64,000 bases of DNA from contig OX387199.1 of NCBI GenBank assembly GCA_947561715.1, positions 18,853,001 to 18,917,000 of the forward strand. The letters run 5' to 3'. How positions within the stretch are numbered: the stretch's first letter is position 1; each line of letters opens with the position of its first letter. This DNA comes from Ascidia mentula (taxonomy: Eukaryota > Chordata > Ascidiacea > Phlebobranchia > Ascidiidae). Shown here piece after piece: positions 28,532 to 49,526 of the stretch. Below the pieces are notes generated by a model that was not told the DNA's origin, searched no databases, and worked only from the letters and a program-made list of their open reading frames with translations. The translations under genes were made by a program, and so were the position numbers.

Positions 28532-30983
28532 ATGAGTGCCGTTCACTCCAAAACCCCTAACGACATCCTTACATCATCAATCATGACGTCATCAACAAAT
28601 GACGACGCAACTTCAAGCAGCGGAGTGAAAGTAAGTTCTGATACTAATATTGTAAAAATCTGCCTTTGCCAACTTGCATACATTGTGTTCTAATTATGAC
28701 GTCATAACGTACGTGCAGATGACTCTTCTCGAACACCAGCTGTGGTCAAAGTTCCATAGTTTCGTCAACGAAATGATCGTGACGAAAAATGGTCGAAGAA
28801 TGTTTCCAGTTCTAAAAACTTCAATCGCGGGACTCGATCCCAACGCCATGTATTCCGTCATGCTCGATTTCATTGCCGTCGACAGCAACAGGTGATGTCA
28901 TCACTCATTGCGTCACTTATGCTGCGCAGGAACAGTTTGTGACATCAATATTTTTACACGCTCAGATGGAAATATGTGAATGGCGAGTGGATCCCCGGGG
29001 GAAAACCCGAACCTCACGTGTCTTCGTGCGCTTATATTCACCCCGATTCGCCCAACTTTGGCTCTCATTGGATGAAGCAACCGATCGGTTTCAATCGCGT
29101 GAAATTGACCAATAAGACAACCGGAAATGCGCAGGTTAGCTCTCACTCTATGTTTGAATCTTATGCAGATAAAATTGTTTATTAAATAATCGTACGCAGA
29201 TTTCAAAACGTTAAAAGAGTCGTCCAACTAATTGAAAAAGCGAAAAAATATAGCGTTTTTGGTACACTTTAGCATAATTTGAAGTTATCATGTTTATTCT
29301 ATCTTCCGCAGCAAATCATGTTGAATTCCCTCCACAAATACGAACCACGAATCCACGTGGTAAAAGTTGGTGGTCCGGACGCACAGAAGGTGGTTGCCAG
29401 TCATTCCTTCCCGGAAACACAGTTTATTGCCGTCACCGCTTACCAGAACGAAGAGGTACAACACATATTTACTAATACTTTGACCTTGTGATCACAGACA
29501 TCTTATTATATATGTTATTTCAAGTTGATTGTAATCTAGGCACAGGTTTTCGAACATTGGTTGATTTTGTTTCGTTATCTAGGTTACTTCATTGAAGATT
29601 AAGTACAACCCGTTTGCAAAAGCATTTCTCGATGCCAAAGAAAGGTAAGATTTTAAGATGCCTGTAAACAGAATCTGGTGGTAGCTTTGCTTAAGTCTCT
29701 CGCAAACAAGACGGAATAAGTGTATTGACAGTGGTGCAAAAAAAAACATAATAAAATGTAATTGTGACGAAATAATAATGTGTCACAGTATCACACAATT
29801 TGAGATAAAGTTTGGACGGCTGAACTTTCACTTGAGGTCACCCGACGAGTGAGGGAGTGCGTCTCCCAATTTGATTGAAATGTCATACGCTTATATCAAA
29901 CTTCTTTTCTTCAGCCGCAACGAAATGGAACCGCTGTACGGTGACGTAACAAAGACCCAAATCTCTCCCAACCCCCCTCAAAGTAAGTATTACCTCATAA
30001 ACCAATTTTATTTCGCAAAATGGGATTTCGAATCAACTCTGTCTCGTTTTGCTCACAGTTCACTCCTGGGGATTACCCAACAACGATACCATGCCCCACC
30101 AGTTTCCCCCCTCTAGGGGATTTCCCGCTCACCTCTACCCACCGGTACCCCTGCAGCAGCCGATGGAGCACCCCGGGATGTTTGCAAACACCTACAACCA
30201 CCCCTGCAAGGATCGCGCCACCAGCTACAGGTCGCATCGCCATTCACCCTACGCCTACACCCCTGTGCCAAGATCCTCACCAACAGGTACCTTGTGACGT
30301 CATACGGAATGTTTATGACGTCGGGGTTCGCGTAATAATTGTCTGCCTTTGTTATGGTTAGGCACCTACACCACTCCGTCATACCAGGATATGAATCCAA
30401 CTCCTCCATCAACAAGCAGCCCTGCAGAATGCGTGTTTCCTCCAGCGGCCGAATCTTGGCCGGTATCTCAACCGCTAGAGAGCGTACTGAGCACCGAGCA
30501 GTTTCAGTTTGACGTTCCAACATCGCTTGAAAGCTTTGCCCACAAATTCGAGCCAAACCCGTACGGATTACCTGAAACCGAGTACCCGAATATGTCGGCC
30601 AATTATCCAATATCATCAGTTTATGACACTACCGGCCAATACGCTGGTATGACGTCATACGACGTACCTTACTCTTCAGAATATGTGGCGACAAATTTGG
30701 ATGACGTAACGAACGGTGTGGAGCAGTCCAACCAACAGTGAGTGCGACGTTACGCATATTTATTGCAATTTATTGACCACTTGAATTGGATTTCAGATTT
30801 TTTTCGCTAATGACGCAACCGCAAGAAACCAACATCACAGTGACGTCACCGAACGGCAGTCATGTGATGATGTCATCACTTTACGACACCCCATCACCTC
30901 CAGTTATCGAAATTAGTCAAAGTTCGCCACTTCATCACGAAGGAAGCCCTCATTGGTCCCCGCTGACCCCACCTGCATTGTGA
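28532..30983 (+). CDS. Bra: Brachyury T-box transcription factor
   Basis: Nine exons join cleanly: 28532-28630, 28719-28891, 28966-29134, 29312-29455, 29583-29644, 29915-29982, 30059-30286, 30362-30737 and 30797-30983 (TGA), for 501 residues. All introns start GT and end AG. The T-box spans about residues 34-216: it opens with [20 protein letters not shown] and includes [52 protein letters not shown] and [14 protein letters not shown], all Brachyury hallmarks. The C-terminal half is rich in Pro, Ser, Tyr and Thr, as in transactivation regions. Brachyury binds palindromic T-sites and in ascidians specifies the notochord. Exon 4 follows exon 3 with NAQ-QIMLNS, one residue longer than the vertebrate sequence at that junction. 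The start was chosen because it begins an open exon with a good GTAAGT donor; the first 33 residues are not conserved outside tunicates. Confidence 0.95.
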
Positions 30984-30988: not shown

Positions 30989-31003
30989 TATATTATGTTC
31001 TTA

Positions 31004-31009
31004 AATAAA
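31004..31009 (+). terminator. Brachyury poly(A) signal
   Basis: AATAAA begins 21 bases after the stop codon, giving a very short 3' UTR. It is the first canonical signal downstream. Confidence 0.6.
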
Positions 31010-34000
31010 TATTAAAAGCGCCAATTTCCGTTGTGTTTTCTCAGTCTCCAATAATTGCTGGTTTATTTTGTCTCGAGGCAAGTCGTAAACACGTGACCAG
31101 CTTGCTTATTCATCTGCAAAACACGTGACCTTTCAGGCGCACGTGCAAGATTTGCAAGGTCATTATGATAGGTGCAAAGTTGCTGATAAAGCCAAATTTA
31201 ATCATCCACGCCCTGAAGAAACCTTTCGACCATAGGTCAGTAAAGATTTTACCAAGCATAGCTTCCAGGCGAATCATAACAACGTCTGCTGGACGCAATT
31301 TTGACACTTGTCTTGAATGACATTTAAAGAAATTTAATGCCCTCAAATTTGATCGCGCCCGAATTGCCGGTCTGTTTGCTGTTTGGCAAAATTAATCATT
31401 CCGATGCGAGCGGGTGACATTTCAAACATTAAAATTATCTTTAAAGAAACTGTCGCTCAGCATACAGCTTTTTGGAGCACAGTGAATTCAGGATTAAGTT
31501 TTGTCAACGTTCTCTGCCAGCAGCCATGGCAAATAAGGCCAAAAAATAAAACTTTCACTTTTAAACAGCTCACCAAACCGAACGCACGTAGGCAAATTTA
31601 TTGCTTCATTTTTGTGCATTATTTGTTTTACTGCAACGAATCGCAATAAACGTTCCAGTTATCGTGCAGTGATATGAGTACAATCGCTCGTCTTATCGCA
31701 GTTCAATCGCGCCTTGACCTGGCTATTTTTTTTTGAAAAGGCAAATCATCTTCTGTTCAACAGATAAACAAACGATCTTGTGGTATTGTGGTGGTTTAAC
31801 AAATACGGTTGCTCCATAGCATAAGGGATTATTCTTTCCAACATAAAGTGCCACCCTTTTCGACAAACTTCTGCTGGCCGATCAAAGTGCAGAAAACCAA
31901 GTGTTAAAAAACTTAATTAATTTTCCAAAAAAGTTTCATGCTGGATTTGATACACGACACGTGCGGACCACTGTGTTTCGCTTGTACACTCATGATTAAA
32001 TCTATTTTTGCAGGATAGGCGTCTAATGTATCTAATCAGTACTGCAGTGGCTCCAAACCAGTTGGGCAGCGCTGACGCAATGTATATCTTATGCACATTC
32101 CACAAACCACATAATTATGCATCAAAGCAAACAAAGCGGAAAGTTGATTCAACGTCAAAGCTGTTGTTGTCAGCATTCTCAACCTCAGCTTTTTGCCGGG
32201 CTGGAATTGTGAGTTTCCTTATCTGAAATCACGTCTCGTGTGGTCGCTTTCTTGGAGCTCTGAGATATCGACACCAATGTTTAGTTTGTTGGATAGAAAT
32301 CAAACGTGCTGCTCACTTGCACTTTTTTCAAGATTTGTTGGAGATGGTTTAGTAAAATAGGCAACCAGGAAAAAAATATGTTGCAGCGATCAACCGTAAA
32401 CCAGAATTATTTCGGTCACACAAACATAAATACAAATGTTGAACACGGAAGTTTAGATTATCTTCTTGTGCTTCTGTGCAAAAAAAAAAGTTGTTTGTAT
32501 CGATGCGATTTTAAGTAGCAAAACTCGAAAGATATCAAACCAGAAAATGTGGACTCGGGTTTCCCATCGTAATAAACGTGTTAGGGCACTTCAACACCCA
32601 CACAAATCTCTAGCAAAACGCAAGAAAAAGAAAAATTTTAAAAAAAGAAAAATTTTATTAAACTTTGCCAAATTTGGGAACTCATTAGGCCTGTTCTTAC
32701 CAGACCAGATTTTTTTTTAAATGGAATTCCTTTTACGATTTCTTTTATCATAAAGTTACCCGAAAACAGTTAATTCGTGCATCTACTCTCTTAGTATAAA
32801 ATACCATTAATTTCTGTTAAACTTTGATAACTGACAATAAAAACGTGGCTGAATTTATTAGAAGTTAGGTTGTGAAACTTGGAGTTGAAAGATTAAGGAC
32901 TATGTCCACATAAAAACATTTTAAGGCACTTAAATACCCGAAACACCCACGCAGAACCACCAAAACGCCACGAAGGTACCTTTTAGCACACTTTGCCAAA
33001 TCTGGGCATGTTTTATGTCTTTTTTGGCGAACATTTTTGCTGTATTGGTTGCATGATACGATCGCTATTGCCTTCAACGTATATTCCCGTGGGCGATTTA
33101 TCGTTGTATGCTACTGAAAAAACCGTGTGTGTATGCTACTGTGCGGGCGTACAAATTTACTCTCTAGTTAAAAATCATGAGAAAAAAAGCCCAAAACTAT
33201 ATTTTTCGACCTACATTTTCCACACTTTCCAGTATCTATAAAATATGCTAATTTGTGTTGAAAGTATTTTGTATCACAAATATTGAATGAATAAAGGCCG
33301 GTTTCTTTTGGGAGTAAATATGTTACCCAACACGCGCACATTTTGCAATTTTGTTTGCGGAAAACTGCAGCGATTCTAACAAAAAAAGCTTGGACAAATT
33401 GCATCTTATGTTTTTATTTGTTTTCGCAATTTTGGGAAGTTAGCCAGGAAATGGAAAAAAACTCTTCTTCAACGATTCGACTCCAAAAATAGGCGTTGGG
33501 GACGGACTGTCCAGGTGTTGCGAGGTGACGAAAGCCTTGGAAGCATTGATTGTTGTGCTTTGAGCAGAAAAAAAGGTCAATGAAACTAATGCTGATGACA
33601 CAGATAAATCGTGATAAAGTAGTTGAACACAAAAATTTTAAATCGAAGACTATGCAAAGTAAACTGAAACTAAGAAAATTTCAAAAATTTTTTTTTTAAA
33701 TTAACCGATGTAAAAATTATAACATATATAATGGAATGAATTTGTAAACGAAGAGTTGTATGAGCTTATTAAGGCGATAATTGCTTTCCAAAACCGCGTC
33801 ACGACGCACGTGACTTTGCACCCCAACGGCTGATGAATTCTAATCAAGGCGGCTAAATTATTGCGCGGCAAAATATTTAGCCTGCGGCAAAGTAGCCGTA
33901 CTTAATGGTGTCGCCTCTCGCATGCCGGGCAGGTAGACGCACCATTGTCCAAGTGGGCGTTACACCTCCATATATATTGTCAGGCAAGCTGTAATAACAG

Positions 34001-36093
34001 TATCTGGAGAGGGAAACCACCCGCAGTTTGTCAGTTATAGGACAGCTTATGAGTTTCGGGAATTCACTTTTTGTTAGACTCGATTAAATGCTGGTGGAGA
34101 ATATGTGATTCGAAGTATTACGTGAAGGTGAAATCAAATTGGAAAAAAACAGGCAGTTCGTTCGCACATTCACTTTTAGAGAAAGCAAAGGTTCAAATGG
34201 GTTTACGGTTTTCGGCATTTTTTCATTTCAATGAGATTTTGGGTAGGTCACGCCCTTATCGCGATTATGTAACATTGAATGACGTCCGTAAATGCCATCA
34301 TCGCTAGATTTGGTGCAATTTATGCTGCACAACGTTCTGTTATTTGAGGAATTGGCAAAACCTCATACTTTCAGAGCACTTTTAATAATCACGTGTGTGC
34401 AACCCAAATGCAGAAAAAATCGTTTTCAATTTTCATCCCTAAAATTGTTATTGAACCGCAAACCCACTGCTGGCTAATATTTTCGGGGCCAAAAGGTATT
34501 TCCCACAATAACCTTACAACTGATGACTTGTGGACCAAACCACACACAACTTTAATAACCCGCACATCTCTTTCTCCATTGATTTGATTCGACAAGTTAA
34601 AAGAAGGGTTTTAAGATAACGGTTTAACTGCAGCCCGAGCGGTTCAGTCTAAGCTGTTGTTTTAAAAACAAACAAATCATCCCAAAGCAATGTGAAGACG
34701 GCTATATTTGCCAACTATCGTGATTTGAGAATCATGAAGTCGGTTAAAGGTTGCTAGCTGCGTTTGGTGTAATTTCTCAAACAGCACCGAATAGTCCTTG
34801 ACACTGAATTGACAAACCAAGCACCGGATAAAGGTATTTTTTTGGATCGATTAGGTTTTACTGGGAAAGATCATTGCTTGGAATTTAGCCTCTGGTTGTA
34901 ACAAGAAAAGCTTTACTCATTCGATATGTATTTACATGTTATATATACACACATATCGTAAGGCCGACGTAACATTTATAGATGTATTGGGCAACAAGTA
35001 TATTGATTACAATTTGTCGAAGCACATTTGCAGCCAAGCATGTGTATTCTGACGTCGGAATGCAATACACAGTAAAACTACGTATTTCTTTTGTTAATCC
35101 TTTGTACAACGACGATGAATATGTTATATATTGAACAAAAATAGGTCGCATTTTTCGGTATTGATCCCAATTACGTCCAAACAGAAAGTATGCCAATAAA
35201 CTGCACGTAACGATTCACCGGTTAATTGGCAACTGGCATGCTTCCTTTGATGCCTGAGGCCTAATTTTTCCTCTATGTCATCGGCAACCGACGTCAGAAA
35301 ATCGAATGCGGTCGCGACTCTGAATGACTCACTGAAGGTTGTGGGGTGGTGTCCCTAATTTGCTAGCGGCACGTGGATCGCTAGTGCCGGCGATTTTATC
35401 AAGATAATGTCACATTTTGACTTCTCCCATGTGTTACGACCGGCAAACTGGAACAATGTCATTTCATGGACACGTGCAGTGAAGGTCACGCCACGTTGTG
35501 TAAGTCAAACCGATGGGATAGCGTCGCAAAATGTTCACACGTTTAACTCCGAAGCGCGCAAAAGGCTTTAGAAAGTTTTGGAATGAATCACAGATATTAA
35601 ATTAGGTTCATTACTTCTCGTGTGTGACTCGGAGCGCGGTTGCATGGTTCGTCATTGGAGGAATAAACTTTTTTCTCAACCTCACAATAAGAGCATCACC
35701 ATTCCATCAATTTCGTGCGCGTTATTTAAAATTCCTATATATTGCTCGTGTGAGAGTGAAACTTGCGCAAACCAGCGGAGAAACAGAGCAGAATAGTGTG
35801 TAAGCATTTTGAGTGTTGGAACCTTTAAGGTTTTGTTTGTATTTTTTTCCGGATAGCAATTGATAAACTTAAAGACAAATATTTTGCAAGTTTATTCCTT
35901 TTTTTCAACATAAAGAGTGTGTCATTGATAAATACATATGAATATAAAGGCATAAATTTTAGTTGTGTTCAATTGCAAAGGAGAATTGTTTAACAAAAAA
36001 ACTTACAGCCGCCTTTTCTGCAGAATTTGCTCAGATGGTTTAGCGAGTTTACGAAACGGAAACCATGCTGGTTGCAATTTTCCATGACTTAAA
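31010..36093. other. Intergenic, Brachyury to cytokine-like gene
   Basis: I found no supported gene on either strand. It contains A/T-rich low-complexity patches near 32620-32720 and 33680-33700. A TTTTCTGCAG splice acceptor-like site at 36014-36023, about 70 bases before the next start codon, could join a leader to the downstream gene. Confidence 0.45.
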
Positions 36094-39000
36094 ATGAGAA
36101 TATATTCAACATTTGCTTTCATCACCATGTGCCTTACCACTGTTTCTTGCCACAAACTTCCACAAACGTCTGCACGACGAACCAAAAACGAAGCGGATCT
36201 GATAAATGTACGAAATCTGCGACTTCAACTTATGAGAAAGTTTCGACAATCCAGGGTCGATTTAAGAATATGGAAAGTAAGTATGTTTAAACAGATTGAT
36301 AGCATAATAGCTTTCCTGTTTAGAATAGTCAACTCCACGTTTTTTGCACCTAAGTATGTTGTACAAATTTGTCACAGACTAAAGACTATGTGATATGTTG
36401 CCATAATCACGCTTTTTAAATGTAAACGTTGGATCTGTACAACACGTATGCTACAGATCTGAGCCCGAGTTTGGTTTCTTTCTCTTTATCTGTTTATATA
36501 GATTTTGAAACGACGCGGCGTGAATTTGTCAGGTTTTTGTTGTGTTTCCGACATAAACTGTTCAAAACACAAAATTAATGTAAAATTACACAGGATATAC
36601 AGCATGAGTATCAAACAATATGACGTAATTAGCATTTAACCTCGCAATATGTTCACACGTAATGGAAATACACAAGCTGTTACGCCAAACTTACTGCTAA
36701 ATGCTATTATGGTAAATTATCTGATACATTAGAGCAGTGCTTCTCAAACTTTTCCGCATGTGATGCACTTGGAAAGATTCACGGCACTTACAACGCACCA
36801 ATCATATAAATCTACCAGGACGATTTGTTCCAATGTTTAGTGCCAAAGCGCTGACATAAATTGTCATTTGTGTCAATTTTTCTTTTGAAATTGTCACGCG
36901 GCGGCCCTGGAAATTCAAAACGACCAACCAGGCGTCGCGTCACACAATTTGAGAACCTCAACATTGGAATAATTTTTAATTTGTTTAGGAACAGTTATCT
37001 GAAGACTGCTTCGTCACCGTTCACTGGGATGAGGTAATATTGAATGCCTTTGACTCGTTAATTTATAAACACATGCTCATACGTGGTCATTCCTTTTTTT
37101 ACACAGACTCTAGCTCGAACCCCGGGCTCGCATCTAAAACACCTGCTCCAACTCCAGCTATCACTCCATGCCCTCGAGACTCTCATATCGAGATGCTCTA
37201 ATTCAACATCTTCTTCAAGTTCTGACACCCGTACTTCTTCAACATTCCGTGACTATCTGCGTCATTTTGACGAATATATGCGTCGTTTTGCCCAGGTGAG
37301 ATTGCTTGAGGTTTCACTGGATCAATATAGTGACGACCTTTCGTTATGCTGCCCAAAACAGTGCCAACAATGATTGCGATATTCTTCAACCAAATGAAGT
37401 CTTGAGACCAATATCGCGACTTAAATAACGTTAAATTGGGTTGAAAATGATCCAATTTACCTTCGTTCGATCATCGTAGTAAAAAAATACAACGAACGTA
37501 TTTCGGAACACATGAAATGCGCCAACGTATATATCTGTCAGCTGTTTTTGTCGGTATTAATGGGCCATCTTTTGAAGCTACTTAAAAGTTGACAATTGTC
37601 AGGAGTTTTAAATTCTGTCATTTGTCTGGAATGCATTTGGGTGCTGACAGGACACGAAGAAAATGTGTGAAAAAAACGATGCCGCGGTTTCCTTTCCTCG
37701 CCCTTTTGACATTAAACAATGCTTGCTTTGCGGATAAATATACTTTAGAGCAGTGGTTTACGCTTACGGACCCGGGAGCGGTCCTAGGCCATGTGGGGCC
37801 CGGTTAAAAAAATAATTGCGGATGTATTTCACAAAAAAGACTCAAAATTAGCGAAAACAAAATTTTGAGATTGGACGTTTGTTCTTCATGGTTAACTGTG
37901 GGATTTGGTTAAAACGGTTAAGTGTCTCTATACAACCGTGTGCGCACCGGTGCAATTTCAAACATCTAATGGCCCGCTAATTGAAAAAAAAATGGAACGA
38001 GCATCAGAGCATACTAATAAAAAATAATATTTAATATTGTAAAAGACCATACGCTCTTCAGCAGAAAAACAATTAACGTAGAAAATCTCTGCCTTAGGGT
38101 GCTCGACAACATTGCGAATTTTGTCTGAAAAGTCTGATCAATCATTTTGCTTGAAGATAAAAAAAAAAGATTTGTCAATATTAAAGTCATGTGAGATTCG
38201 ATAATTGCTGTGAAACTCGGAAAGTCCGCATTAAATATGCGGTAGCAAATTTCGCAGCCTGAGGTTTTTTCTTTCACTTGTCAAGTCCACAAATTGGCGC
38301 CTTCCCTATCGCTTTCCGGGAGATCTTGCGCAACAGTTCACAGCTCAGTGACGCAAATGCGTGATCAACGCCGCTTGGGCGTGTCCGTCGAATCGAGGCC
38401 GTTGGACGACTCCTGAACTTTTGAACTTGCAACGCAAAAGATTTTGGAAAGATTTTGAACGTAAAGTGGTTGTTCGTGCGGCACGTTTAACTGTTTTCCC
38501 GAAGGCGTTGTAAAGTGCATTGAGCGTTGGAAAATGGCAAGGTCGTGTGCAACATTTTTACTATATTTGCTCGAGAATATGCACGAAGTTTTCCAAACCG
38601 ACATCAGCAAATCGTGCAAACAATATTCAGATATTATTGGCTCCACATTGCTTATAATACTCAGATAATTTGATGACTTTAGCCGTATTGCCTTCCGCAT
38701 CATGATCAGCCAATGATCTCCACATGTTTACGAGTAAAACATCGAGACAATAACAAACTGCCCGCATGTGTTGGTAAACAATGCTTTATCGCATCAAAAT
38801 ATCTGCGTTAAATTCCGAGGCGGGCACGTGATACATGAAACAGTCCAATGCATTAATTTTTTGCATGGTCCCACTTCAACTTCTTTTCAAAAAGTCCTAA
38901 AACAAGTAATGCATTCTGCATTAAATAGGTTTAAAATAGTTTGGCATCAGTAGTTGAGAAACGTTATTGTGTCTAAACAAACTCGACCTTTCAATTGTAT

Positions 39001-39769
39001 TAGCTTGTGCATTTGCCATTTATAAATATTCATATTGTAGTTTGCGGAAGTTTCATCTCACGCATTGCTCTCCTCTTTGGGTTGGTTTGTTTCACTCCAT
39101 ACCAAAGGGCAGCCCTGTGCGTCATATAGCGTTCTCCAAATATAGTTTAATTTTATGTTGGCTGTCTCAAAGCGCAACATTATTCATCGCTCAAACAAGT
39201 TCCAATCGGAACTTCATCCGTTGTTGTGCCAAAGAGCTTATTGTCATGGACAACATCATATTGACCATTTTAATGTCATTAAATTTTCTCAATAAAGGCA
39301 GGGACTCAGTAACACCAACCAAATGATCGCTGTCTTGTCGTTTCGAAATGTCACTTGTTTGTTTGTTTCAACCGCATTTCGGTATGTTGCGCCATTAGTC
39401 TCACCTGACGAAGCGACTGTTACAATGTGCCAAGTTTGTCCTGTTATAATGCTTGTCCAAAACAGGGTAACCTCATCCGCTCTAGTAATCATAACAAAAA
39501 CCAATGTTATATTATGTCCCAGTACCATGTGTAAATAATATGCTTTTTACGATAAACTTCTTAACTTTTGTTGCCAGGTGCATGCAATCCCCTCTTCGTC
39601 ACCGATGACGTCATCTTTGACGTCACGTACATTTTACAGTCGTTGCGTCAATCATTTGCACGATTATCTGAACAAACTTCTGCGACTGAATCATCGAAAA
39701 CGGCAGAAACACGTTGAAGGTCATGACCTTTCACAATTGATGGTTCAACATTTCTCAAAATGTTTATGA
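36094..39769 (+). CDS. Secreted four-helix cytokine-like protein (new)
   Basis: Four exons join in frame, all introns phase 0: 36094-36276 (61 codons), 36989-37033 (15), 37107-37295 (63) and 39578-39769 (63 plus TGA), for 202 residues. Donors are GTAAGT, GTAATA and GTGAGA; acceptors are TTTAG, ACACAG and TTGCCAG. Residues 1-19 look like a signal peptide (MRIYSTFAFITMCLTTVSC). Amphipathic helices are likely at about 33-64, 86-109, 120-141 and 155-180. Beyond the signal region there are four cysteines (EDC, SRC, SRC, SKC) and one N-glycosylation sequon (NST). Helix A with a signal peptide, a short linker exon, one exon for helices B and C and a last exon for helix D, all phase 0, is the known gene layout of class I cytokines such as EPO and IL-6/G-CSF. 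I recognise no specific orthologue; receptor and role are inference. An out-of-frame ATG begins a short upstream ORF just before the start. Confidence 0.6.
36735..36961. repeat. hAT-like miniature element in intron 1
   Basis: The left end CAGTGCTTCTCAAACTT is partly mirrored by the right end AATTTGAGAACCTC. The element is about 225 bp, non-coding, and lies inside the first intron of the cytokine-like gene. I found no clean target duplication. The hAT family is inferred from the termini. Confidence 0.45.
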
Positions 39770-41061
39770 CGCATGTAGAAATAACGTTATATAGATTATT
39801 GTGTATATTGTGTTTAGGAAATCTTTTTAATCTGATCTCTGGAATATGCAAACTGCATCTAGTTCAGAATTTTTCCTGCATTCTTCGCCGTCCAAAAACT
39901 TTCCAAAGTTTTATGGATGTATTTAAAACAACAAACTGTTTTGTTGTTTTAGAAAGCATTGCTTGTTGACGCGGAATAACTTCCCCAACTCCGCCGATGT
40001 GGATTGGCAATCTTGTGTTTTTTGTCGTAACTGTGTTTTACAATTATATTGCAAGTGACAATGCACGCTTTAAAATGTATTTAATATTCTTGCATGCATG
40101 CAAGCCTTAATCGTCGTTAAGTGTGTGTATGCAGTTTTGTCTTTAGAGGAATTTTGTGGATGATGTGGGATTATTCAAACTGTCGCAATATAAAATATTT
40201 CTGTTATACATATCGAATGTTTATTGAGACATTACACAAAAGAAGCAATGACAGTATGTTCAACTTTGGCAATATTTAGCGCTACCTTACAAGATGATAA
40301 ACAAACCAACGGCCCCGCAAGGTGACAGCAAAGAAAAAAATGTCGACGAAGCAAATTTTTAAGAAAGGGACCATTGAAAGGAATTAAAACAAAAATCATG
40401 TATTTAATTAAATGTTTCTGTGGAAGTATTCGGTTATATAAAGATAAAAAAAAGTAAATTAAACTAAAAGCATAATGATCTCCAAAAAGATTTTGATGAA
40501 TAATGGCGGGTAAAAATAGCTGAAGTCATGCTTTTGTTAGAGCTCAAATTATTTTTGTTTGCTGCTTCGCAAATAAAAAAGCAAAGCATTGCAACTTTTC
40601 CTGGCTAACCTGCAAATTGTGTGGAAAGGATTTGGCATATAAAGCGCCAAATATTTACCGTTTATTTTAATTTATGTTACCAGAACGGAGATGACATAAT
40701 ATACGAGTTTGGAAAGAAGGCATATTTTTCAAATTTTATTGGCCATTCGCTCAGAAAAGATAAACTGCTTCTAGGTACTTTTAAGATTCTAGTCCACACA
40801 CCGTTTTTCCAATCGTCTAAACCAAAATAATACATGCAAATTACATATTTTTACAAATTACAAAAGAATTCTTCATCAACATTTCTGTGTTCAAAGTTTT
40901 CAATTCCATATTACATAAACCTGCAGTTCTGCACTGGTAATAATTGTTAAGATGGGTGGAAGAAAACATCCACTTTAACTCTTTTAAGCCTGTTGTGTGT
41001 TATTAGGTTTACTTTTGTTTCATGTTTATTTTTCCAAACAGATCATTTTTAATAATTAATC
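39770..41061. other. Intergenic before METTL27-like copy 1
   Basis: AT-rich with no supported gene. It probably holds the 3' UTR of the cytokine-like gene and the promoter of the methyltransferase. Confidence 0.45.
41042..41061 (+). promoter_or_regulatory. Conserved splice acceptor and 20-base leader, copy 1
   Basis: CCAAACAG ends at 41041, exactly 20 bases before the ATG. In the second methyltransferase copy TTCAG also ends exactly 20 bases before the ATG, and the two 20-base leaders match at 16 positions, while the sequence upstream of the AG does not match. This marks a real 3' splice site, used either for a 5' UTR intron or for spliced-leader trans-splicing, which Ciona is known to use. 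Confidence 0.55.
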
Positions 41062-41736
41062 ATGTCAGACAATAAAGATATTAAATTGTACAACAAAATA
41101 TACGGTGATTACATCAATGTAAACAGCACAGAAGCAACTGTTTCCAACTACACAAAGCTTGCAGAAGATTATGAGAGTGATTTTGTTGGCCTTGGGTATG
41201 AAACACCACAAGTAGTTGCTTCTACTGCATTAGAGTTTATTAATGGCGGAGAGGGCAAAATACTTGATATTGCCTGTGGCACTGGGTTGGTGGCGGAAAA
41301 ACTTCGCTCTGAAGGGTTTAAAGGTCAAATCGATGGCATTGATGGAAGCTCTGGTATGCTTGATATTGCAAAGGCCAAAGAAGGACTTTACACAAAGCTG
41401 GTAGAAGACTTTGTGAATCCAGGTGGCAACCTTCCATTTGAGATTGCATTTTATGATGCTGTTGTGTGCTGCGGGGGGTACGGTCCTGGCCATCTGATGC
41501 CTGTTACACTAGAACAACTGGCAAAGGTCACTAAGCCAGGTGGGGTAATAGTGTTTGCAACGAGGGATAATGAGCAAGCCACTGATTATGTCGTTGAACT
41601 CGGCAATGTTATTAAACAAATGGAAGAAAATGGAACATGGAAGCAAAAGAAAGTTGCGAAGACAACGTACTTCCGATTTGATAAGGGAAGAGACACCCCA
41701 CTACATGCACTCATATATTGCTGCCAAAAGTGTTAA
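41062..41736 (+). CDS. METTL27-like SAM methyltransferase, copy 1
   Basis: A single-exon frame of 224 residues. Motif I of class I SAM-dependent methyltransferases is at about 67-80 (ILDIACGTGLVAEK). The acidic-loop region follows (QIDGIDGSSGML, about 89-100), then YDAVVCC (131-137) and KPGGVIVFATR (158-168). The order and wording match METTL27 (WBSCR27), including the N-terminal YDxWAxDYD-like region, here AEDYESD. The substrate is unknown even for the vertebrate protein. The start is supported by a splice acceptor 20 bases upstream and by alignment with copy 2. Thymidylate synthase begins about 270 bases downstream on the same strand, close enough for co-transcription. A near-identical second copy lies at 48846-49526. 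Confidence 0.85.
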   Translation: MSDNKDIKLYNKIYGDYINVNSTEATVSNYTKLAEDYESDFVGLGYETPQVVASTALEFINGGEGKILDIACGTGLVAEKLRSEGFKGQIDGIDGSSGMLDIAKAKEGLYTKLVEDFVNPGGNLPFEIAFYDAVVCCGGYGPGHLMPVTLEQLAKVTKPGGVIVFATRDNEQATDYVVELGNVIKQMEENGTWKQKKVAKTTYFRFDKGRDTPLHALIYCCQKC

Positions 41737-42004: not shown

Positions 42005-44586
<2,582 letters not shown>

Positions 44587-46464
44587 AAAATATGCGTTGT
44601 TGCTTGATCTTCAACGTTGTATTGCTCGAAAAAATGAACTTGTCACCTTTTCGATTGTGTGTATGACAAAAAGTAGTACCTACACTACCATTTTGTGCCG
44701 TTCACTGCCATTTTGTACCAAATTTTTTTTCATTTTTGTGTTCAATCTCGTTGCTTACAATACAGTTATTTCTTTCTATACATTGAGTAAAGTTTACACC
44801 AGAAACTGTCCTTGGTACAGTAAGCTTTATTAGAGAGAAGGTACATGAAAGTGCATTATATGTAAAAACTATTGCAAAAACAAAGTTCTTTAAATCTGTT
44901 TGTTTCGACGAATTGTTATTTAGACAAATCTTTCAGATTACGAATTTACTAAAAAACTCGAACTGACCGATAAAACGATTTTCAGAATTGATTGAGTAAA
45001 CAACATTTTATATCAAGACAAAGCTTTTGCTTTCTGGGCTCAGACGTAAACAACGTTACGTCCGCTTTCGTGGGCGCTTTGTCGCAAGTCAGTTAGTTCA
45101 CATCACTGATGATGAGCACAGCAGTGTTCGAAACATTTGTTTATATTGATCAGCATATTAGCTTTGGATTTCTTTTCCGTATTAACTTTTACTGATATTA
45201 ATACGCGTGTTAAAGAAGCAAAAGCGCGTGGCCAGGATTTAAGCTGTATCAAGAAAGTAACATAATTTCAGTTTTTCAAACTTCCTTTTGAATTTGGAGG
45301 ACGTTCAATACTTTGTCGAAATGATGGATGGCGATATTTTCCTCAACATTACGCATCTAGCTACGTTTTGTGTTTTACTTAAACAGGATATCCTACGCGT
45401 TGCAGAGGGGGCTTTTGATTGGTATCTGCGATATGATGCATAGATGACGGTGTTAGCAATCACGAAGTACAATAAAAGTGTGGTTAAAATGCAGTTCTAC
45501 ATTTATTTTAGTAGGCGCACAACCTGCAAGGACGTTTGAAATGAATTTTGTCAGTCAGTTTAAATAATGAAATGACTTAAGTTCCTTATTTTGCGAACTG
45601 TTAATGTAATTGACTGCGACATTCGTGCTGTAAACTTTTAACACAGCATTTTCGTGAAGTATTCTTAAACCACCAGTGGTAACTTACTTGTAACCTACGC
45701 TATAGTTAAAGTTAAATTTAGGTAGTAAAAGAATTAATTATAAATAAATAAAATTAATTTGTTTAGTCCTTTGCAGTAACAGGAGTTTATTCGTGCAAGT
45801 AGACGTTTATTTGTTAAACTGAAATAGCATTTTTTTCTATAGAAATTGCAAGTGAATATTTGTGCTGGAACGAAGTTTATAATTGGACTCGTTAACTCAT
45901 TGCTGTATTTCTGTAAATATATACAGAGAAAGAACCGTCAGTAAATTTGCAAAAATATTTCTCTTTTCTTGAATTTTAACTCACAATAAACAAATGCAAT
46001 ATATATCAAATGTTACATTAGATTAGTGCTTATAATGTATCAGGTGGCATTAATAACACATTAAGTATAAAAAAAATTCATTAGACGACTGCAGAATATA
46101 GTTCACCCTCTTTGAAGCGAAAAAAATAACGTGATATGTGTAAAGTTTATGTACAAAACGTAAGCAGTAAATACATGCTGCACTAAACGTTACTAATTTC
46201 ACGAAAAAAACGTAATAGGGCAATTTTGTGATGGATTACAGTCACGCAGTGAAAGGCCAACTTCCGTTTAGTCAGCACCTTCAAATTTTCTTTACATGTT
46301 TGTCAAACGTGCAGTCAACGCAAAAAGTGTTCCATGTCAACGCATGGCAGGCAGGATTCAGTTCACTGGCATTGTAGTCAATCTGTTTAAATGCAGTTTC
46401 ATAAATACTCGTTCTTTTTGTTAGGTAATTGAATTATTTTCATTGATAAAAATCTGTTGGCGTT
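44587..46464. other. Intergenic, TYMS to seven-span gene
   Basis: No supported gene. It contains the TYMS 3' UTR, the family 2 repeat at 45094-45165 and a long AT-rich stretch (about 45700-46200), then presumably the promoter of the seven-span gene. Confidence 0.5.
45094..45165 (+). repeat. Hammerhead-like repeat, family 2
   Basis: Contains CTGATGA (45106-45112), one extra base, a 6-bp stem GAGCAC/GTGTTC closed by AGCA, then GAAAC (45130-45134). This is the hammerhead ribozyme core order except for one extra base before stem II. An inverted, decayed copy lies at 42526-42590. I did not find the stem I and III partners and cleavage site, so activity is not claimed. Confidence 0.6.
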
Positions 46465-47400
46465 ATGAATGTGAACTTGTCGACAACGACCAACTGGCCA
46501 TCAGACAACACAACTTTAGGAACTCAACTAACTCACCGGATTGTCACCACTACATTTGATGGTTTCTTTCTTCTTGTGACGCTTTGGATATTAATGTCAT
46601 TTCTCCGTTACGGAATTGTCCGCAAAAAATTTTCCGCGTCACAGAAATCTGGCCGAATTCTGTTCCTGTTAGCAACCATAGGAGCTTGTCTGACTTGCGT
46701 GTACCACGTGACGAAAATTACGTCATACAACCTTGGATTTAACCCTGCAACAAGTTACGCCTGCACGATTGCCACAAAAGTATCAGCGCAATCGTACGTG
46801 GTCGGCGCCTCCTCTATTTATTTGTTTCTGTGGTTTAAGCAAAGATCTCTCTACAAGAGTTTTCTTCTCGAATCTCTGTACAAAGTATGGATAAAAGTGG
46901 CAAGTTTCCTCAGTATTACTCTCATGGTCACCGGTTACATTTCGGCGGGAATTATCTTCAATATTATCAACACCTATGCGGCCTCACCATATGGCTGTGA
47001 ACGGGTGGAACCGTTTTACACGTGGCCGTTTTTGGTTGGTTCCGGCATCAACCTGCTCGGGCAATGCATGCTGCTCTTTCTTTTTATTTATCCCTTCCGT
47101 TTCGCCCGCGATAAACCCAACACCGCGGCCGGGATCCGACTTCTTAAACGCACCCTTGCCATTACGCTGTTGTGTATATGCACTGATATGGTGACAGGAC
47201 TCTTCAACACGTTTGTTCCCTACTCAGTTTATCGCACACCCTTCATAGCTTACGGATGGACGGCCACCATGAACTTGATTGGTGTCCTTTTTACCTTCGA
47301 AACTTGGCGGGAAATTGTATTATTTCCATGCTACCGTCGTCCAAAAAGCAAAAACATGCAGAATTCTCAAAGTGATGTCACTTTACACAACGTAGTTTAA
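46465..47400 (+). CDS. Intronless seven-span membrane protein
   Basis: 311 residues in one exon. Seven hydrophobic segments lie at about 31-50, 64-86, 100-124, 141-166, 185-211, 227-250 and 258-280. The N-terminal 30 residues carry sequons (NLS at 4, NTT at 15), suggesting an outside N-terminus, and the C-terminus is short and basic to polar. Cys100 at the start of span 3 and Cys178 in the loop between spans 4 and 5 sit where G protein-coupled receptors form their disulfide. But there is no DRY, NPxxY or other class A motif, and I do not recognise the family. It may be an orphan receptor or an unrelated seven-span protein. It lies between thymidylate synthase and the second methyltransferase copy, on the same strand. 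Confidence 0.75.
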   Translation: MNVNLSTTTNWPSDNTTLGTQLTHRIVTTTFDGFFLLVTLWILMSFLRYGIVRKKFSASQKSGRILFLLATIGACLTCVYHVTKITSYNLGFNPATSYACTIATKVSAQSYVVGASSIYLFLWFKQRSLYKSFLLESLYKVWIKVASFLSITLMVTGYISAGIIFNIINTYAASPYGCERVEPFYTWPFLVGSGINLLGQCMLLFLFIYPFRFARDKPNTAAGIRLLKRTLAITLLCICTDMVTGLFNTFVPYSVYRTPFIAYGWTATMNLIGVLFTFETWREIVLFPCYRRPKSKNMQNSQSDVTLHNVV

Positions 47401-48845
47401 AATCAAAATTATTTTGAGAAACAAACTTAAATCATGCCAACATATTATAAAGTATTTGAATTTTCCTGTATATTGTGCTGTAAACACTACGTCAATATTT
47501 TCAAGCGAGCAAGTAAAGAAAACACCTTTTGGGCAACTATGTTTTTGAAACTGGTCAGCGATGTTGGAACTCGTCCGTTTTGTTATTGTTATAGGATTCA
47601 TACACATTGCTTGCGCCGATGGGATATTTGTTTGTTCTATTGTCATTATTATTATTAGCCTATTGTAGGCTATAAGCTGAGTCGCGATCGTAAGCTCCCG
47701 ATTATAAAGTAATATGGAGATTATAGTGTGCCTGGACCTGACTATCTCCAATATATTCCGAACCCACAGTACGGAAATAAACAAGTCTGAAAGCTTTTGG
47801 AACAAACGAAGTCCATGTCCTAGAAAGATGTAAAAGACTACATTTGCGGTGTACTTGCGGACGTCACCACGCGACCGCACAGACCCAAACTTGTAATTGC
47901 GGCATTCGCATACCCCAAGATTTCAATGCGAACATGTAAAGTGTTGTGTTTTTGCTTTATCGCAACCCTTTCAGTAAATATCCTTTTTTTGCTTTTGACG
48001 CATGTTGTGTTTGGTTTCGTGTCTGCATAATTGTGTTAGGCCCGAATAGAAAAGGTCCCTGTCCTACAAAGTGGTATATCGTGTTGTATCAGCTGCAGTT
48101 AATCAAAATAAATATTGTTTGTTCATTGTAAAGTCAACTAAACATTCTTAGATGGGCCAATGATGATCTGCAGCCACGGTCAGCTATACGGCCATCTTTT
48201 TGTATTATGTCGTCGCATGGTTGGGGATACTTCGGACATCAGAGCTAAGAAATTGCAGGAAGATAATACTTTTTTAATTGTTCGCACAATTGTGGGAACG
48301 TATCTGAGAGTCGAATTAAATTACTCACACTATTTAACGCCGGAAATTTCGGCTACACCAACGTTTGCATTAAATAACAATGTTTGGTTGTAAGCAAAAA
48401 ACGTTGTTTGGCCAAATTTGACAGTATGATAAAAAATTGGCTATCTTGCAAACCTGTTGCGGTGACAAAAACGCCTGTTTCTTGTAGCGTGAACACAAGT
48501 AGGGTACGACGACATAGGAGGAAAGCAAGTCGCTCCCTCTCATGCATGTTATTTACTGGGGAAAAGTAATTTAACTTGCGGTGTCTTATACCCAAACGAT
48601 CGTGAACTTTTATCGTATGTCAAGGAGTGATGTGCAAGCTAATAAACATATGTGTTTGCTGGTTAAATTACGCTGCAAAGAAAATGAGTTTTATTCATTG
48701 CAAATTAAAGAACGTGTGATCGACTTGTCTTCATGAGATGAGAGAGAAAGGAGAAAAAGGCAATCGTACTGGACTTGTCTTAGCCAGAGTCATAGAAATG
48801 GGTTTGGTCTAAAAGCTATCTTCAGACCATTTTGAATAATAAACC
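47401..48845. other. Intergenic, 3' UTR and promoter of next gene
   Basis: No supported gene. AATAAA-like signals occur near 47777 and 48106. Confidence 0.45.
48826..48845 (+). promoter_or_regulatory. Conserved splice acceptor and 20-base leader, copy 2
   Basis: TTCAG ends at 48825 and the following 20 bases match those before copy 1 at 16 of 20 positions. See the entry at 41042. Confidence 0.55.
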
Positions 48846-49526
48846 ATGTCAAGTAGCAAAGAAAACGACGTGAAATTGTTCGAAAAAATCTACGGAGAGT
48901 ACATTGATGTAAATAGCAACGCAAAGACAGTTTCCAACTACACAAAGCTTGCAGAAGATTATGAGAGTGATGTTGTTGGCCTTGGGTATGAATTACCACA
49001 GGCAGTAGCCTTCACTGCATTAGAGTTTATAAATGGAGGAGAGGGCAAAATACTTGATATTGCCTGTGGCACTGGGTTGGTGGCGGAAAAACTTCGTTCT
49101 GAAGGGTTTAAAGGTCAAATCGATGGCATTGATGCAAGTTCTGGTATGCTTGATATTGCAAAGGCCAAAGAAGGACTTTACACAAGGCTTGTTGAACACT
49201 GGGTGAATCCAGGTGGCAACCTTCCATTTGAGATTGGATTTTATGATGTTGTTGTGTGCTGCGGTGCATTTAGTCTTGGCCATCTAAAGCCTGTTACACT
49301 GGAACAACTGACAAAGGTCACTAAGCCAGGTGGGGTAATAGTGTTTGCAACGAGAGATAATGAGCAAGCCACTGATTATGTCGTTGAACTCAGCAATGTC
49401 ATTAAACAATTGGAAGAAAATGGAACATGGAAGCAAAAGAAAATTGTGAAGTCAACTATGTTTCGCATTGATAAGGGAAGGGACACCCCATTGCATGCAC
49501 TCATATATTGCTGCCAAAAGTGTTAG
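48846..49526 (+). CDS. METTL27-like SAM methyltransferase, copy 2
   Basis: 226 residues in one exon, highly similar to copy 1 at both DNA and protein level. Motif I ILDIACGTGLVAEK is unchanged; the region after it is QIDGIDASSGML and KPGGVIVFATR is kept. Differences cluster at the N-terminus (KENDVKLFEKIYGEYIDVNS) and around CCGAFSLGHLKPV, where copy 1 has CCGGYGPGHLMPV; this segment often lines the substrate pocket, so specificity may differ (inference). No damaging change is visible, so both copies look functional. The duplication continues downstream into a decayed start of thymidylate synthase, which shows that copy 2 derives from the copy 1 region or a common ancestor locus. Confidence 0.85.
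   Translation: MSSSKENDVKLFEKIYGEYIDVNSNAKTVSNYTKLAEDYESDVVGLGYELPQAVAFTALEFINGGEGKILDIACGTGLVAEKLRSEGFKGQIDGIDASSGMLDIAKAKEGLYTRLVEHWVNPGGNLPFEIGFYDVVVCCGAFSLGHLKPVTLEQLTKVTKPGGVIVFATRDNEQATDYVVELSNVIKQLEENGTWKQKKIVKSTMFRIDKGRDTPLHALIYCCQKC

Follow-up and report, generated by a model that had tools for sequence, protein, structure and literature searches.

Gene structure at the candidate locus

The DNA analysed here is a stretch of 64,000 nucleotides from chromosome 3 of the sea squirt Ascidia mentula, referred to below as the window. The original prediction had assigned it correctly to an ascidian, but the genus Ciona, implied by its mention of "another Ciona species", turned out to be wrong. 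On the plus strand, positions 36094..39769 contain four exons and three phase-0 introns with GT-AG ends, which yield a single open frame of 202 codons followed by a stop codon. The exons are 183, 45, 189 and 192 bases long, all multiples of three, and an in-frame TGA lies three codons 5' of the candidate ATG. The predicted joining of the four exons into 202 residues without a frame error was reproduced to the base, and the phase and the GT-AG ends of all three introns were confirmed from the sequence. The gene model consists of the following parts:

36094..36276, plus strand: exon 1 (residues 1-61), with the ATG, the putative signal peptide and putative helix A; phase-0 end AAA/GTAAGT; donor 8.0 bits, top 1.0% of GT sites
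36277..36988, plus strand: intron 1, 712 bases, phase 0; acceptor 7.1 bits, top 3.4%
36989..37033, plus strand: exon 2 (residues 62-76), a short AB linker with Cys68 and, by eye, a strand-like CFVTVHW
37034..37106, plus strand: intron 2, 73 bases, phase 0; acceptor 9.6 bits, top 0.5%
37107..37295, plus strand: exon 3 (residues 77-139), with putative helices B and C; donor CAG/GTGAGA, 11.4 bits
37296..39577, plus strand: intron 3, 2282 bases, phase 0; acceptor 8.7 bits, top 1.0%
39578..39769, plus strand: exon 4 (residues 140-202 and the TGA), with the CD linker, helix D and a C-terminal tail with Cys201
40572..40577, plus strand: possible poly(A) signal AATAAA, a motif that is not specific in AT-rich DNA

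Splice-site scores are based on a generic metazoan matrix. The donor of exon 3 ranks first among the 3948 GT sites on the plus strand of the window, the other five sites of the candidate fall into the top 0.5-3.4% on this strand, and the weakest of the three donors is that of exon 2 (6.1 bits, top 3.2%); the splice sites, described as clear in the original prediction, are indeed strong. As a yardstick, we used two other genes in the window, those for thymidylate synthase and a T-box protein, whose exon ends were deduced by homology rather than from RNA. The best sites near these ends reach 7.3-8.8 bits (donors) and 7.1-7.9 bits (acceptors), and the sites of the candidate are comparable (6.1-11.4 and 7.1-9.6 bits, respectively). 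Downstream of the gene, ATTAAA is also found at 40383, 40407 and 40458 on the plus strand, likewise not specific in AT-rich DNA, and 3' ATTTA motifs are not enriched, as four were counted in 808 bases, a number attained by 19% of windows. A scan of positions 31000-41000 with Rfam at gathering scores gave no match, nor did a comparison of positions 36094-37295 with phage records. For A. mentula, a poly(A) RNA-seq run (ERR10378036) and an alternate haplotype (GCA_947561685.1) are given in the genome note (PMC11109543).

Several further genes surround the candidate. An exon with a Pfam T-box match (28943-29182) is part of a plus-strand gene upstream of it. Two single-frame methyltransferase genes with matches to Methyltransf_25 and related Pfam families are located at 41056-41733 and 48843-49523 on the plus strand; they are much alike by eye, are presumably METTL27-like and flank a thymidylate synthase gene (42041-43995), of which the first piece has a Pfam match and two further exons were recognized by eye. 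Positions 46450-47397 hold an open frame of 316 residues that lacks a Pfam match and in which several hydrophobic stretches of membrane type are apparent by eye; it may encode an orphan multi-pass receptor.

Features of the predicted protein

Within the product, the following features were assigned:

36094..36150, plus strand: putative signal peptide, residues 1-19; hydropathy 2.4; presumed cleavage after S18 or C19
36190..36276, plus strand: putative helix A, residues 33-61 (tested as 33-62); moment p 0.37, spectrum peak at 140 degrees
37125..37196, plus strand: putative helix B, residues 83-106; leucine-rich, with Cys106 at its end; moment p 0.29, spectrum peak at 180 degrees
37200..37208, plus strand: N-glycosylation sequon N108-S-T in the BC linker, the sole sequon of the product
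37239..37295, plus strand: helix C, residues 121-139; amphipathic (p = 0.0002), spectrum peak at 100 degrees
39629..39706, plus strand: helix D, residues 157-182, with Cys162 near its start; amphipathic (p = 0.019), peak at 100 degrees

The N-terminus is hydrophobic, with a best 8-residue Kyte-Doolittle mean of 2.4 as judged by hydropathy only; on the plus strand, 69 ATGs have a purine at -3 and a hydropathy that passes 1.8, so that a start of this kind carries little weight on its own. Cysteines beyond this hydrophobic part are found at residues 68, 106, 162 and 201, which, together with the single sequon, agrees with the predicted four cysteines outside the signal region and one glycosylation site. 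In addition, the basic stretches RR and RKR are visible in the translation. The prediction of four amphipathic helices has statistical support for helices C and D, but not for helices A and B. Exon 3 encodes a stretch of 18 residues with a helical hydrophobic moment of 0.79, which was attained by none of 3000 shuffles and none of 3000 random open segments of 63 codons, and the best moment in exon 4 is 0.69 (p 0.005 against shuffles and 0.027 against random open segments). The exon 1 peptide minus the signal has no moment signal (p 0.62 and 0.38), and the tail after helix D has a moment p of 0.23. This periodicity, which does not depend on the splice sites, argues that exons 3 and 4 are real and helical.

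Likelihood of a chance exon chain

The window was searched for four-exon chains that open with a signal-like start and whose three introns are all in phase 0, using cut-offs just below the weakest sites of the candidate. This strict rule returned a single chain on the plus strand, which is the candidate, none on the minus strand and none in 100 dinucleotide shuffles. The site cut-offs were chosen post hoc with the candidate in view, and the chance fractions derived from such chain counts are therefore optimistic. With looser cut-offs and phase-0 introns, six chains were obtained on the plus strand, all of them at the candidate locus, and none on the minus strand or in the reversed or complemented window; two of 100 block shuffles contained a chain, and none of the 100 attained the candidate's 50.9 bits. 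Two of the six chains end in a different last exon, at 38098 or 39466, and fall just 2-3 bits short of the candidate. When any intron phase was permitted, 17 chains were present on the plus strand, one on the minus strand and none in the reversed or complemented window, and the eight plus-strand chains listed comprise four at the candidate and four that start from 29290 near the T-box gene. Under this rule, 33 of 100 shuffles contained a chain and five attained the candidate's score.

Codon usage was assessed with a model built from 6620 codons of 33 of 38 loci, the other five having been dropped for stop codons. Compared with random open segments, the candidate exons gave a summed p of 0.28 with the full model and of 0.18 for synonymous choice only, exon 4 having the poorest score of the four exons (p 0.82 and 0.87). 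In the reference coding loci, synonymous bias is nearly absent (0.018 nats a codon, leave-one-out), so that the test is weak in both directions; codon usage is uninformative, speaking neither for nor against the candidate exons. The chain of exons is unlikely to have arisen by chance, and the gene is very probably real.

Sequence searches and alignments

No Pfam family matches the candidate protein at E-values up to 10. As class I cytokine families are often undetectable from one another by profile, this result is not decisive for membership of the superfamily. A sequence search of the PDB returned four matches, all of them viral L1 capsid chains with E-values of 0.61-0.93, which were taken as chance. 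In addition, the candidate was aligned exon by exon with six human cytokines. The lowest local p-values were 0.002 (IL-5 exon 4), 0.004 (IL-2 exon 3), 0.008 (IL-5 exon 2) and 0.019 (IL-4 exon 4), the lowest global p was 0.012 (IL-2 exon 3) and the summed global p ranged from 0.087 to 0.943; given 24 exon pairs, or 48 tests with both modes, these alignments are not convincing. Kinship with IL-4 and IL-13 found no support in the sequence, with summed shuffle p-values of 0.37 and 0.12, respectively, and no Pfam match, and on these grounds the candidate would not be filed as a member of the IL-4/IL-13 family. The alignment with EPO yielded nothing (summed p 0.26), and IL-6 and G-CSF were not among the six.

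A second copy of the gene was sought in the genome (195,842,439 bases in 79 contigs) by two protein searches, in which the best candidates alone were scored and which a too-divergent copy would escape; none was found among these best-scored candidates. Four of the seven matches of the first search are the gene's own exons and the other three, two on contig C2 and one on contig C1, have E-values of 0.81-0.98. The second search also gave seven matches, two of which are the gene's own exons and five of which are located on C2 (E 0.33-1.5). Two places on C2 (L005 and L007) consist of near-identical DNA with no fitting exon structure, and the place on C1 (L006) lies beside phosphatase exons (by eye); all three were rejected as chance matches. 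Between 196 and 330 kb, C2 carries a repeat with long overlapping open frames at five places, two of which were read and are nearly identical.

JAK-like and STAT genes and receptor searches in the genome

Two neighbouring JAK-like genes (L047 and L048) are located at about 8.024-8.031 Mb of contig C71 of the same genome (G000). The kinase part of each is contained in an uninterrupted open frame (1155 and 1107 codons); each has two kinase-domain stretches and one of the two has an SH2 match (778 and 787 residues scanned). STAT matches were found on two contigs, three of six being over the cut-off. None of the three class I receptor profiles with which the genome was searched (PF09240, PF06328 and PF09067) had a match above its cut-off; this is not evidence of absence, as receptors of this class diverge rapidly. 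For Ciona, a gp130-like and a CLF-3-like receptor chain, one of each, have been described (PMC1963337).

The sub-threshold receptor matches were followed up and rejected. A match to IL6Ra-bind (21.1 bits, cut-off 24.3) has internal stop codons and belongs, by eye, to a gene with immunoglobulin and kinase segments rather than to a class I receptor. The matches to EpoR_lig-bind (20.8 and 17.0 bits, cut-off 27.3) and Lep_receptor_Ig (14.7 bits, cut-off 28.8) remained below their thresholds, and inspection of the candidate loci L077 and L078 by eye revealed nothing convincing. A scan of the window and loci L001-L075 for the WSxWS motif had a single hit, within a frame of 40 residues in L050 that has no receptor-like gene opposite (by eye). 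Contig C73 contains a long run of fn3 domains at about 575-639 kb with uninterrupted open frames of as many as 5810 codons, as seen among the 150 of 653 fn3 candidates that were scored; we take this run to be titin-like.

Interpretation of the candidate gene

The locus is probably a genuine gene whose product is a secreted helical protein. Our preferred reading, held with modest confidence, is that this protein is a divergent four-helix cytokine of class I type with a putative bundle fold and a putative receptor; the narrower proposal of a genuine class I cytokine gene of the short-chain type in a tunicate is more tentative. The cytokine reading is favoured because the gene model is exact, unique at its site quality and unequalled in 100 shuffles under the phase-0 rules, because the helical amphipathicity of exons 3 and 4 exceeds that of random open segments, because the exon plan matches that of IL-4-type and four-helical cytokine genes, and because JAK-like and STAT genes are present. 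It is weakened by the lack of a Pfam family, chance PDB matches and the absence of a receptor-profile match over the cut-off, and by helices A and B, which show no helical periodicity (p 0.62 for the exon 1 peptide). Neutral codon statistics, the commonness of signal-like starts, unconvincing alignments, ATTTA motifs at background level and the five of 100 shuffles that attain the splice score when any phase is permitted weaken it further. The class I assignment made in the original prediction therefore survives in part: a probably secreted, partly helical product and a cytokine-type exon plan speak for it, but Pfam, the PDB and the receptor profiles do not support it.

If the cytokine reading is correct, the gene would give rise to a product of about 180 residues after secretion, whose bundle fold might be held by disulfides among Cys68, Cys106, Cys162 and Cys201. 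On blood or epithelial cells, the secreted ligand would be bound by a gp130-like class I receptor, whose signal would then pass through the JAK-like and STAT genes found in this genome.

Three other explanations have to be weighed against the preferred one. The gene could be real and its product secreted and helical without being a cytokine, for instance a lineage-specific peptide precursor or another small, fast-evolving secreted protein. The evidence for the gene itself is independent of a cytokine fold, no family matches the protein, helices A and B are weak and the stretches RR and RKR could be processing sites; however, the three phase-0 introns coincide with the partition into A, AB, B plus C and D, helices A and B being putative, and we consider this explanation rather unlikely, though it is the strongest competitor of the three. 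It would be less likely still that there is no gene and that open frames and splice-like sites form a chain by chance, or that exons, above all exon 4, were misjoined. This idea draws on a codon usage like that of random open segments, on the block shuffles that reach the same splice score under the any-phase rule, on site cut-offs picked after the candidate was known and on the small margin to the last exons at 38098 and 39466. It is opposed by the phase-0 rules, under which no shuffle attains the candidate's score, and by the helical signal in exons 3 and 4, which does not depend on the splice sites; moreover, the codon test has little power with reference loci that nearly lack synonymous bias.

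The least probable of the alternatives, for which we see little room, is a class II helical cytokine resembling interferon-gamma or IL-10, which would act in the same mode via a class II receptor. Phase-0 introns also occur in class II genes, as fish type I interferon genes are described as having four of them. The tail after helix D could form a further helix, and the interferon-gamma gene has four exons. The 15 residues of exon 2, however, have the size of an AB linker, whereas genes for IL-10 and interferons contain either additional exons or a longer second exon, and no Pfam family matches the protein.

The original prediction had held that no helical ligand is established in tunicates, in agreement with a 2022 review, in which helical cytokines of this kind are given as undetected in sea squirts (PMC9010856). 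Among the open-licence PMC papers listed, none describes a tunicate class I cytokine, as judged by title or the start of the abstract. In a review of tunicate immunity, a TNF homologue is named, and IL-17-like genes of Ciona appear in the reference list (PMC5465252). If it is a cytokine, the candidate would be a messenger of a kind not previously detected in sea squirts according to the 2022 review (PMC9010856). If it is truly of the short-chain type, the plan of four exons and three phase-0 introns of IL-4, IL-5 and GM-CSF would predate vertebrates, and the gene would supply a ligand to a JAK-STAT axis in tunicates for whose receptors none had been known. A candidate ligand with exact coordinates makes the time of origin of helical cytokines directly testable.

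Comparison with known cytokine genes

In amphioxus, an invertebrate chordate, a hormone resembling growth hormone (GH) is known as a divergent helical cytokine of class I with 208 residues; it was cloned and reported to be functional (PMC9010856), in contrast to the candidate, which is a genomic prediction. The layout of the candidate had been likened to that of the class I cytokine genes of vertebrates, with EPO, IL-6 and G-CSF as models. The phase-0 plan of A, AB, B plus C and D stands, but the models have to be replaced by genes of the IL-4/IL-13 type. The long-chain class I genes EPO, IL-6 and G-CSF share the phase-0 partition of the helices after their first intron; they differ in having a longer AB exon and one more intron, the first, inside the signal peptide. 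In the candidate model, the ATG shares an exon with putative helix A, and an additional coding exon may lie upstream.

With human IL-5, the likeness is confined to two exons: the helix D segments RCVNHLHDYLNKLL and RRVNQFLDYLQEFL are identical at 7 of 14 positions and occupy the same place in the exon plan, and exons 4 and 2 gave local shuffle p-values of 0.002 and 0.008, respectively, with nothing in exons 1 and 3 (0.85 and 0.97). As these are two of 24 exon comparisons and the summed global p is 0.29, the likeness is not evidence of kinship.

Genes of the IL-4/IL-13 type are described as having four coding exons, encoding the signal peptide plus helix A, the AB loop, helices B plus C and helix D, and three phase-0 introns (PMC4905449, PMC5440397, PMC12327624), and one of these papers, citing work from 2001, gives this exon-to-helix plan for four-helical cytokine genes in general (PMC12327624). 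The candidate likewise has four coding exons and three phase-0 introns, which lie between the helices as in the published plan, the positions of helices A and B being putative. It shares this organization with IL-4, IL-13 and fish IL-4/13, all short-chain class I cytokines, and its layout fits these genes more closely than EPO, IL-6 or G-CSF, again with helices A and B as putative elements. Its exons 3 and 4 are long (189 and 192 bases) compared with exon 3 of tetrapod IL-4, for which 126-177 bases are given in PMC4905449. A further difference from the IL-4 system is that no gamma-c or IL-4 receptor is known in tunicates. Exon 2 comprises 15 codons as compared to 16 in human IL-4, and it carries one cysteine while another ends putative helix B, as in IL-4, where the disulfide Cys24-Cys65 links cysteines in exon 2 and at the end of helix B.
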